Below the pieces are notes generated by a model. The model had not been told where the DNA came from. It saw only the letters and a program-made list of their open reading frames with translations, and did not search any database. A program made the position numbers and the translations under genes. From Nocardioides daeguensis (GTDB lineage Bacteria; Actinomycetota; Actinomycetes; Propionibacteriales; Nocardioidaceae): a stretch of DNA of 64,000 nucleotides. Positions 10,003 through 19,531 of this stretch are shown piece after piece (the stretch's first letter is position 1; each line of letters opens with the position of its first letter). The DNA is taken from assembly GCF_019192965.1 (NCBI RefSeq), contig NZ_JAHTKU010000022.1, positions 1 through 64,000 of the forward strand, written 5' to 3'.

Positions 10003-10017
10003 CGCGGGGCCCGTCGC

Positions 10018-10175
10018 GTTCTCTTCCTTCCGGACTGTGACCGTCGGCTCCGGAGTCGCACCGGATCTGCTGACCCGCCCCGGTCGAGACCGGGACGGCG
10101 CTCGCGGGCTCGGTCGCCCCGGATCCGCCGGGACGCCCTCACCGCCGGTGGGGACTTCCACCCCGCCCTGAGAAC
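10018..10175 (-). promoter_or_regulatory. FMN riboswitch (RFN element)
   Basis: On the minus strand the element runs from GTTCTCAGGGCGGGGTG through CCCCACCGGCGGT and GATCCGGTGCGACTCCGGAG to CCGACGGTCACAGTCCGG and a closing GAAGAGAAC. These are the conserved blocks of the FMN aptamer in the right order, and the GTTCTC and GAGAAC ends pair to close it. One arm carries a GC-rich extension. It precedes ribH by 56 bases and should lower RibH production when FMN is plentiful. Confidence 0.95.
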
Positions 10176-10384
10176 GTACGGCGACAGGCTACCGGCTCCA
10201 GCACGCCCCGCGGCAGCGTGCCCGCATGGTGCCCACCACGCCCGCCACGACGGGCGGCACCGGGCGGCACCGGGGCCCGCCCCAGATGTCTGGGAACCGG
10301 TGCCCACCGACAGTTCTGGGGCTCCGGAGAACCCGTCCGCCTGGGATGGTCGGCGCACCCCCGGTGCGGCCAGCATCTCGTGTC
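10176..10384. other. Intergenic region upstream of the riboswitch and the MFS gene
   Basis: About 210 bases between the FMN aptamer (minus) and the MFS start (plus). It must hold the promoter of the ribH transcript and probably that of the exporter. I see no convincing -35/-10 pair or operator palindrome in it. Confidence 0.4.
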
Positions 10385-17667: not shown

Positions 17668-18411
17668 GTGGCCACCGCAGGCAGGACCCTGCCGCTCCTC
17701 GCCGACGGGTTCGTCGACCTGGTGCTCGGCTCGCGCTGCGTGGGATGCGGGCGCCCCGGCCGGCCCTGCTGCCCCGCGTGCCGCGAGGCAGTCCGGGCGT
17801 GCGCAGAGGAGGCCGGCCCGCACTGGCCCACGCCCTGCCCGGCGGGCCTGGTGCCGCCGTACGCGGTGGGGGAGTACGGCGGCCTGCTGCGCGCGCTGGT
17901 CCTCGCCCACAAGGAGCGCCGCGTGCTCGCCCTGGCCCGGCCGCTCGGTGAGCTGCTGGCGGGCTCCGTGGCGGTGGCCGCTGCGTCCGCGCCGGGCCCG
18001 GTCGTGCTGGTGCCGGTGCCCTCGCGCGCCTCGACCGTGCGCCGGCGCGGTCACGACCCGATGCTGGCGATGACCCGGGTGGCGGCCGGCCTGCTCGGTC
18101 CCGAGGTCCAGGTGGGTCGAGTGCTGCGGCTGCGCCCGGGCGTCGTCGACCAGGCGGGGCTGGACGCCGCCGGCCGGGCCGTGAACCTGGCCGGTTCGAT
18201 GACGGCGCCCGCGGCCGGCGTACGACGCCTCGCCCGGCGCTGCCCCCGCGCCCACGTCGTGGTGTGCGACGACGTGCTGACGACGGGCGCCACCGTGCGG
18301 GAGGCGCAGCGCGCGCTGGAGGCGGCGGGGGTGCCCGTGCACGCCGCCGCGGTGGTCGCGGCCACCCGGCGCAGGACCCGCGCCCCGTCGGCCGGGGGAC
18401 CTCCGACCTGA
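17668..18411 (+). CDS. comF: ComF family phosphoribosyltransferase-like protein
   Basis: A 247-residue ComF-type protein. The N-terminal zinc-binding motif CVGCGRPGRPCCPAC lies near residues 24-38. The phosphoribosyltransferase fold follows, with VVLVPVPSR, the RRRGHDPM motif and the PRPP-binding loop VVVCDDVLTTGATV. ComF proteins serve DNA uptake in competent bacteria, but in actinobacteria the role is unclear. The start is a GTG 58 bases after lpqB; upstream in-frame sequence overlaps lpqB and lacks family similarity. The order lpqB-comF-hpf is conserved in actinobacteria. Confidence 0.9.
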   Translation: MATAGRTLPLLADGFVDLVLGSRCVGCGRPGRPCCPACREAVRACAEEAGPHWPTPCPAGLVPPYAVGEYGGLLRALVLAHKERRVLALARPLGELLAGSVAVAAASAPGPVVLVPVPSRASTVRRRGHDPMLAMTRVAAGLLGPEVQVGRVLRLRPGVVDQAGLDAAGRAVNLAGSMTAPAAGVRRLARRCPRAHVVVCDDVLTTGATVREAQRALEAAGVPVHAAAVVAATRRRTRAPSAGGPPT

Positions 18412-18449
18412 ACTTGGGGTCAAGCCTTTCTTCGTCACCAGCGACGGAC

Positions 18450-18455
18450 TAACGT
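18450..18455 (+). promoter_or_regulatory. -10 box for the candidate RNA upstream of hpf
   Basis: TAACGT, with a predicted transcription start about six or seven bases downstream at 18461-18463. That is exactly where the 5' arm of a 15-bp closing helix begins. The -35 region is not convincing. Confidence 0.5.
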
Positions 18456-18461
18456 CTGGTC

Positions 18462-18780
18462 ATGGAGTCCGCCCGGGTCCGTGGTTGCGTCGCTCAGACA
18501 GGGTGCGAGCCTCGTCCGGAGCGCCAAGCCGATGCCAGTCGCAGGCGAAACGGTCCACGTAAGTCACGTACGGACGGCAGTCCTCGGGGAACCTTTCGGG
18601 GGTCCACGGGGGCGGAGCCCCCGTGCGTGGTGATCACGGTGCGGCTTAGTCGTCAGTCCTGCCTCGGACCGGACGTCAGACACGTCCGCCTCCGGGAGAG
18701 GGCCGGTAGTGGCAACAAGCTGCGGAAGCCCCAGCAGGCGGGTGTGGGGACGAAGACCAGGTCGGCCGGGCGGACTCCAT
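18462..18780 (+). ncRNA. Candidate structured RNA between comF and hpf
   Basis: The first and last 15 bases (18462-18476 and 18766-18780) are perfectly complementary. Inside them TGGT (18482-18485) can pair with ACCA (18756-18759), and CGTC (18488-18491) with GACG (18749-18752), extending a rod. An internal 9-bp hairpin (18605-18613 with 18617-18625) has a 3-base loop. The overall plan, about 320 bases with paired ends, resembles 6S RNA or mycobacterial Ms1, which bind RNA polymerase; no sequence match to either is claimed. It could equally be a folded part of a long hpf leader. The reading frame through it has poor third-position GC, arguing against a protein. Confidence 0.5.
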
Positions 18781-18904
18781 CTGCGCCGCTCCACCGCGCG
18801 TCGCCGGCGTCCCGGCGCCCCCCGGTCGGTCCCACCGACCCCTCTCACTTCCTGCCGGGGCGGCAGGAACACCCATCACGCCTAAATCCCCTTGGAGGTA
18901 ACTG
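18781..18904 (+). other. Rest of the hpf leader with three hairpins
   Basis: Three perfect hairpins follow the candidate RNA: 18802-18807 with 18812-18817, 18824-18830 with 18834-18840, and 18851-18856 with 18862-18867. None is followed by a T run. They may mark the 3' end of the RNA or fold the leader of hpf. The strong Shine-Dalgarno sequence GGAGGT of hpf lies at 18894-18899. Confidence 0.5.
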
Positions 18905-19531
18905 ATGGACGTTGTGGTCACCGGACGGCACTGCGAGATCTCGGACCGGTTCCGAGAGCATGCCGCCGAGAAGCTCACCAAGCTGGAGAAGCACGATCAC
19001 CGGATCATCCGGGTCCACGTGGAGGTGGACTGCGAAGCCAACCCGCGCCAGCACGACCATGCCGTCCACGTCGAGCTCACGGCCTACTCCAAGGGGCCCG
19101 TGATCCGGGCTGAGGCCTCCGCCGACGACAAGATGGGTGCGCTCGACCTCGCGCTCGACAAGATGGCCGCGCAGATGCGCAAGGCCGCCGACCGGCGCCG
19201 GGTGCACCGCGGCCGTCGTACGCCGGTCTCGGTGGGCAAGGCGCTCTCCGACGTCGCGGGCACGCAGGCCGAGGAGGTCGCCGACGACGTCGCGATCGAG
19301 CGGCAGGTCGGCCCGATCACGGTGACCGGCGACGGGCCGCTCGTGGTGCGTGAGAAGACCCACCCGGCGAGCCCGATGACGCTCGACCAGGCGCTCTACG
19401 AGATGGAGCTGGTGGGTCATGACTTCTACCTGTACGTCGACAAGGAGAGCGAGCGTCCGGCGGTCGTCTACCGTCGCCGCGGGTACGACTACGGGGTCAT
19501 CTCGCTCGACGTCGGGAGCGTCCAGGGCTGA
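18905..19531 (+). CDS. hpf: Ribosome hibernation promoting factor, long form
   Basis: A 208-residue long-form HPF. The N-terminal domain (residues 1-100) is the HPF/RaiA ribosome-binding fold (VTGRHCEISDRFREHAAEKLTKLEKHD). A linker follows, then the C-terminal domain (about 150-205, ending YRRRGYDYGVISL) that dimerises ribosomes into 100S particles. It protects idle ribosomes in stationary phase or stress. In many actinobacteria secA follows it, but here a response regulator gene does. A 490-base leader with strong structure precedes it, suggesting regulation at the RNA level. Confidence 0.96.
   Translation: MDVVVTGRHCEISDRFREHAAEKLTKLEKHDHRIIRVHVEVDCEANPRQHDHAVHVELTAYSKGPVIRAEASADDKMGALDLALDKMAAQMRKAADRRRVHRGRRTPVSVGKALSDVAGTQAEEVADDVAIERQVGPITVTGDGPLVVREKTHPASPMTLDQALYEMELVGHDFYLYVDKESERPAVVYRRRGYDYGVISLDVGSVQG

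Follow-up and report, generated by a model that had tools for sequence, protein, structure and literature searches.

A raiA RNA upstream of hpf in Nocardioides daeguensis carries a predicted leaderless start codon at its first base and an open frame under selection

The spacer between a comF-like gene and the ribosome hibernation gene hpf in Nocardioides daeguensis raises the question of which RNA is encoded there and how that RNA is related to ribosomes and to hpf. The whole stretch of DNA analysed, called the window below, is 64 000 nt long. The comF-like gene (17674–18411, + strand) encodes a phosphoribosyltransferase domain (PF00156 above cut-off). The hpf gene (18905–19531, + strand), preceded by GGAGG at 18894–18898, encodes a ribosome hibernation factor (PF02482 and PF16321 above cut-off). 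For positions 18450–18780, the initial annotation had proposed a discrete, end-paired RNA akin to 6S or Ms1 RNA, with a folded hpf leader as the main alternative.

The window was scanned with Rfam models. raiA RNA (RF03072) was matched at 18468–18774 on the + strand with 123.9 bits (gathering cut-off 101.3, E 5.4e-30), over model positions 1–209 of 209, and was found once in a search of the whole genome. The 581 bases of 18380–18960 were compared with 4227 Rfam models at E ≤ 10; this gave raiA plus one chance match far below its cut-off, and no 6S-type model. RF00013 (6S) had zero matches across the whole genome. The feature at 18450–18780 is a raiA (ModT) RNA, and the proposed 6S/Ms1 kinship was dropped on the strength of these searches. 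An RNA that binds RNA polymerase as 6S or Ms1 does would share size, terminal helix and neighbourhood with this feature and nothing else, and we regard it as hardly credible. Elsewhere in the window, a 5S rRNA gene lies at the very start (4–120, + strand) and an FMN riboswitch aptamer at 10014–10179 (– strand; 86.8 bits, cut-off 66.2).

The raiA RNA, delimited by the RF03072 match and covariation, spans 18462–18780 (+ strand). It is closed by helix P1, in which the 15-base arm already recognized by the initial annotation (18462–18476) is perfectly complementary to 18766–18780 (15/15 pairs). The variable stem regions were placed by sequence anchors for P2 (18489–18526, + strand) and by anchors and alignment for P5 (18564–18634, + strand). 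The 9-bp internal hairpin reported earlier is present (18605–18613 with 18617–18625, loop GGA); it lies outside the conserved core, in variable P5. According to the accessible text of PMC11706538, raiA/ModT occurs in over 2,500 species without a known molecular function; in C. difficile, ModT is described as abundant, stable, noncoding and trans-acting during the growth transition. The same source cites comF upstream of raiA in 74% and raiA/hpf downstream in 66% of cases, a common but not universal neighbourhood. A cryo-EM structure of raiA RNA exists, and the RNA of C. acetobutylicum has two pseudoknots, pk-1 and pk-2 (PMC11751092, accessible part). Both neighbours were identified in the window by Pfam. 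Among relatives, a comF match lies upstream of raiA in 54/56 loci of the window's family (tblastn), and hpf lies downstream in 133/141 loci of the class, on the same strand every time.

Covariation and alignment were based on 56 raiA loci from 120 genomes of the window's family (f1). The class set consists of loci of the window's class, taken to be Actinomycetes from named homologues such as Nocardioides, Nonomuraea and Nocardiopsis. A class-wide search matched 102 of 394 genomes, 17 of them in the family; the 85 loci from outside the family (80 parsed by the general script, 5 with hand-set anchors) and the 56 family loci made up 141 loci. Loci with named organisms overlap the other sets and were not counted as independent. 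Tests on P2 used 136 of the 141 loci: L195, L211, L258 and L270 were left out because they have no exact ATG or GTG (the GTG of L270 sits one base on from the exact place), and L206 because P2 is missing. Within the family, raiA is patchy, with a match in 56/120 genomes and no match in 64/120. None of 12 hpf loci examined from raiA-less family genomes contained raiA at E ≤ 1. As strict filters were applied in searches of more than 40 genomes, some of the absences may be misses.

The single-sequence fold had an energy of –166.9 kcal/mol (z –1.35), and 9 of 100 shuffled sequences folded at least as well. A stable fold was not accepted as proof of structure, since this one is unexceptional; the structure rests instead on the family match and on covariation. 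In the 56 family homologues, pairing holds in 88.8% of the cells (84.1% on average in shuffles, no more than 45.2% in slid controls), two-sided changes occur in 27 of the 67 pairs (18.9 on average in shuffles) and the covariation score is 0.191 (0.112 shuffled, at most 0.099 in slid controls). The values for pairing, two-sided changes and covariation score were reached by 0/500 shuffles, and that for further pair types by 3/500. The outer pairs of P1 switch jointly, from A-U to C-G and from G-C to A-U, in 11 sequences. The conserved, compensating helices expected of the raiA family were found across these 56 sequences. The view that a structured RNA with paired ends and its own promoter lies 5' of hpf is upheld by the RF03072 match, by this covariation among relatives and by a conserved –10 box.

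This box, TAACGT at 18450–18455 (+ strand), was confirmed, and the start predicted from it, A18462, was judged fair. It is conserved as TANNNT. In the 49 family loci with 6-nt spacing, TA and the last T are invariant and the fifth place is G in 98%. A –35-like element, CTNCCG, was seen at 18425–18435 in the window and upstream of family raiA, paired with a TANCGT –10 box. It is unlike the usual TTGACA; in the 49 family loci the frequencies are C 0.76, T 0.88, C 0.80 and G 0.65 at –36, –35, –32 and –31 from the start codon.

The initial annotation had overlooked that the predicted first base of the RNA is the first base of an ATG (18462–18464, + strand). The frame that it opens (18462–18905, + strand) has 147 codons plus stop and reaches the first base of hpf. 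In the class, ATG (121) or GTG (16) stands at the RNA start in 137/141 loci, and the other four have ACG, CCG, CTG and CGT. In the family, ATGG opens all 56/56 sequences; the A of the start codon is unpaired in 36/55 and the T in 18/56, yet both are invariant. The distance from the end of TANNNT to the start codon is 6 nt in 108 of 136 loci, 7 nt in a further 27 and 4 nt in the remaining 1. From the 6–7 nt spacing, the start codon is predicted to lie at the 5' end of the transcript in 135/136 loci. Such spacing, combined with ATG or GTG, is what a leaderless mRNA would have. Among raiA loci from other classes of the phylum, 1/65 had ATG, GTG or TTG at the RNA start. In genus g106, which has small genomes, the start place reads ACG, CCG or ATG, and an early in-frame stop was present in 2/3.

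The frame of the start codon is open through the RNA in 124/136 class loci, against 9 and 20 for the other two frames. In the family alone, it is open through the whole RNA in 53/56 loci, against 2 and 2. Since the conserved core carries stop triplets, an open frame alone could be a matter of register. The RNA might then be plainly noncoding, with ATGG belonging to the initiation sequence and to P1, and with the frame a by-product of the core and of G+C-rich DNA. Such a reading agrees with the description of the family as noncoding and trans-acting in clostridia (PMC11706538, accessible text), with a core that itself fixes much of the sequence, and with an ORF that has neither a Pfam match nor conservation at the peptide level. 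The register is, however, set by the variable stems, and the lengths of these stems argue against it.

Across the 136 loci P2 takes 26 different lengths, and modulo-3 classes 0, 1 and 2 hold 110, 0 and 26 loci. Class 1 would put the TAA of CCACGTAA in frame. Counted as distinct combinations of family and length, 35 values belong to class 0, 12 to class 2 and 0 to class 1 (47 in total). P2 length changes at least 58 times on the hpf tree (Fitch counts on one FastTree tree with 133 leaves and no bootstrap). Random assignment to classes would leave class 1 empty with a probability of about 6e-11 for the 58 changes and 5e-9 for the 47 distinct values.

The controls were raiA loci of other classes of the phylum, which have P2 and no start codon. 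Sixty-five were parsed, 55 had a P2 of at least 20 and 54 were used, L349 being left out for poor anchors. With a P2 of 9, apparently a parsing error, L307, L308, L309 and L311 did not enter the set; L333 and L342 were kept despite weak anchors, as was the single control with a chance start codon. In the controls, 20, 19 and 15 of 54 loci fall into classes 0, 1 and 2. The avoidance of class 1 in the presence of the start codon, 0/136 against 19/54, indicates an open frame under selection, as in a leaderless mRNA; counted on loci it gives a Fisher p of 3e-12, in which finer relatedness is ignored. On distinct values the comparison is 0/47 against 12/38 (Fisher p 2e-5, finer relatedness again ignored; the 38 leave out L281, L286, L287, L288 and L290). 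The only class-1 P2 among the 141 class loci is that of L258, which has CTG instead of ATG or GTG.

Other stops behave in a similar way inside the RNA. The TAG of GGCTTAG, located after P5, is in frame in 0/136 loci, against 67 and 69 for the other frames. The variable parts of P2, P5 and P7 contain 44 stop triplets, none in frame. Segment lengths of P5 were measurable in 123/136 loci and in 25 controls; classes 0, 1 and 2 number 82, 0 and 41, against 11, 5 and 9 in the controls. Length differences between close pairs are multiples of 3 in 20/21 cases for P2, 16/20 for P5 and 1/8 for P7. An in-frame stop within the RNA was found in 12/136 loci, and 8 loci have the final stop of the core, the TAG of AGTAGTGG, in frame. 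Given the constraint on P2, the use of GTG in place of ATG in 16/141 loci and the invariance of an A and a T that are often unpaired, we hold a plainly noncoding RNA to be quite unlikely.

Other sources of an open frame were considered and rejected. The frame is not the extension of an upstream one: an in-frame stop lies at most 120 nt upstream in 110/136 loci, and in 83 it is the –10 box itself. Nor did a gene on the minus strand account for the bias, the best minus frame being open in 65/136 loci against 124/136 for the plus frame. The avoidance of stops does not continue to hpf. It is absent from the spacer, including long spacers before hpf, and within 100 nt beyond the RNA end there are 92 stops in frame, against 57 and 66 in the other frames. 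In L190, L191 and L192 (family code f6), the frame starts with GTG, has only 24 codons including the stop and ends inside P3. L072, which shares the GTG start and P2 length, carries the possibly mistaken label Bifidobacterium breve.

An open frame kept by selection could encode a working product, here a small basic protein, and the RNA would then have a dual function. The start codon (137/141) and open frame (124/136) speak for such a protein, as does the preference for P2 class 0 over class 2, 110 to 26, which exceeds what stop avoidance alone needs. Against it, P2 substitutions between close pairs are evenly spread over the codon positions (72, 90 and 85), with no third-position excess. Depending on the lineage, one or the other of two frames runs through the core after P2, the C-termini of the encoded peptides look unrelated across loci, and no family match was obtained for the leaderless ORF in Pfam. 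The G+C content of the frame had no clear codon periodicity. A conserved peptide, as would be expected of a dual-function RNA with a working product, was not found; the peptide-coding reading was rejected and a working protein is considered unlikely. What selection maintains is an open frame across the folded domain, and neither a protein nor an invariable link with hpf; what matters would then be the act of translation.

As for that link, the TGA of the ORF and the ATG of hpf share one base in the window, and L013 has the same one-base overlap of stop and hpf start. Coupling of ORF to hpf was rejected as a general rule, as the distance from ORF end to hpf start lies between –5 and +3 nt in only 5/136 loci. 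The raiA-less relative L067 retains TAGCGTCTGGTCATGGAG about 80 nt before hpf, with an ATGGAG start and the same promoter. The layout of this locus looks as if the body of raiA had been deleted. L067 is one of 12 raiA-less hpf loci, and similar boxes were seen by eye before hpf in others of these 12 (e.g. L058, L062 and L064). From such promoters before hpf it follows that the raiA promoter probably serves hpf too. The earlier idea of a folded hpf leader thus stands in part: in this class raiA probably belongs to the hpf leader, and perhaps forms a separate RNA as well. No terminator-like site was found in 18380–18960. An 8-bp hairpin, TTCCTGCC-GGGGC-GGCAGGAA, read from the sequence at 18849–18869 (+ strand), lies between raiA and hpf and lacks a T run. 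With its G-rich loop it could separate or shield the raiA and hpf RNAs.

The evolution of these loci suggests that ribosomes read the raiA RNA of this class. The explanation that we favour, and think somewhat probable, is that it is both a folded RNA and a translated hpf leader with a leaderless AUG or GUG at its first base. A ribosome would load while the 5' end of the nascent RNA is free, translate the raiA domain and keep it unfolded. If no ribosome had arrived before the 3' strand of P1 was made, P1 would close and the compact raiA fold would form. In the window, closure of P1 would pair the AUG itself, and complete folding would need the 3' strand of P1; folding and translation would then be mutually exclusive. 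The most plausible use of such an arrangement would be to make either raiA formation or the entry of transcription into hpf depend on ribosome supply. According to the accessible part of PMC10937400, the polymerase of M. tuberculosis tends to pause 200–500 nt downstream of the start, and elongation is favoured by a translating ribosome, even under Rho depletion. As the raiA domain extends over this range, ribosomes translating it could move transcription on towards hpf. The data do not demand that this escort last as far as hpf, since stops are not avoided past the RNA end. Without translation, a short folded raiA RNA could remain. Counting against the favoured explanation are the 12/136 loci with an in-frame stop, the 4/141 that lack ATG or GTG at the exact place, the even codon-position substitutions, the lack of G+C periodicity and the P7 value (1/8 multiples of 3).

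Much of the same evidence is fitted by a trap for ribosomes. The mature RNA would end at the 3' strand of P1 and would hold ribosomes, having a start codon and no in-frame stop. The adjoining gene is one for hibernation, and the avoidance of stops is confined precisely to the folded domain. The trap rests on a 3' end at P1 that is conjectural in this class; no terminator-like site was found near it in the window, and 12/136 loci have a stop inside the RNA. We give this alternative a small chance of being right.

Beyond the favoured explanation of a folded and translated leader, we put forward as a tentative and rather doubtful extension that the raiA of this class is translation-gated, with the leaderless start codon competing with closure of the terminal helix. 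Free ribosomes would then decide between a translated hpf leader and a folded raiA RNA. If so, a direct sensor of ribosome supply would stand before the hibernation gene, and the job of the raiA family would be tied to ribosomes.

If ribosomes read raiA in the whole class, the RNA is not simply noncoding there. A change of the start codon or an in-frame stop would then be a clean genetic handle on raiA function, and a folded RNA and a reading frame would be under joint constraint without a conserved peptide. The raiA family, its neighbours and its structure are already known. A start codon at the tip of raiA, or translation of raiA, was not mentioned in the literature searched, a set outside which the founding motif and knock-out papers lie. 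The terms 'peptide', 'open reading frame' and 'coding potential' are absent from the accessible text of PMC11706538, where 'start codon' refers to reporter construction.

Compared with known systems, the RNA of the window shares with clostridial raiA/ModT (RF03072) the full-length model match, the conserved core, closure by P1 and the comF and hpf (raiA) neighbours. Clostridial raiA among the named loci is mostly without the P2 stem and 5' start codon, unlike the RNA of the window. The ends of C. difficile raiA lie at about 215 and 260 nt (PMC11706538, accessible text), whereas the RNA of the window has about 320 nt, with longer P2 and P5. The raiA of other classes in the phylum has the same core and, in many loci, the P2 stem; it differs in having no start codon at the RNA start and no constraint on P2 length modulo 3. 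6S and Ms1 RNAs, compared through 6S-type models, are also end-paired and of similar size, and no 6S match was obtained. With the leaderless mRNAs of actinobacteria, the RNA shares a –10 box 6–7 nt before an AUG or GUG that is the predicted +1. In the accessible part of PMC9031893, GUG is reported to start leaderless translation efficiently in M. smegmatis, Saccharopolyspora and Streptomyces. The difference is that the frame here overlies a conserved folded RNA and encodes no conserved protein. Small dual-function RNAs with a peptide likewise combine a selected RNA structure and a reading frame in one transcript; in the raiA of this class, the frame is conserved and the peptide is not.
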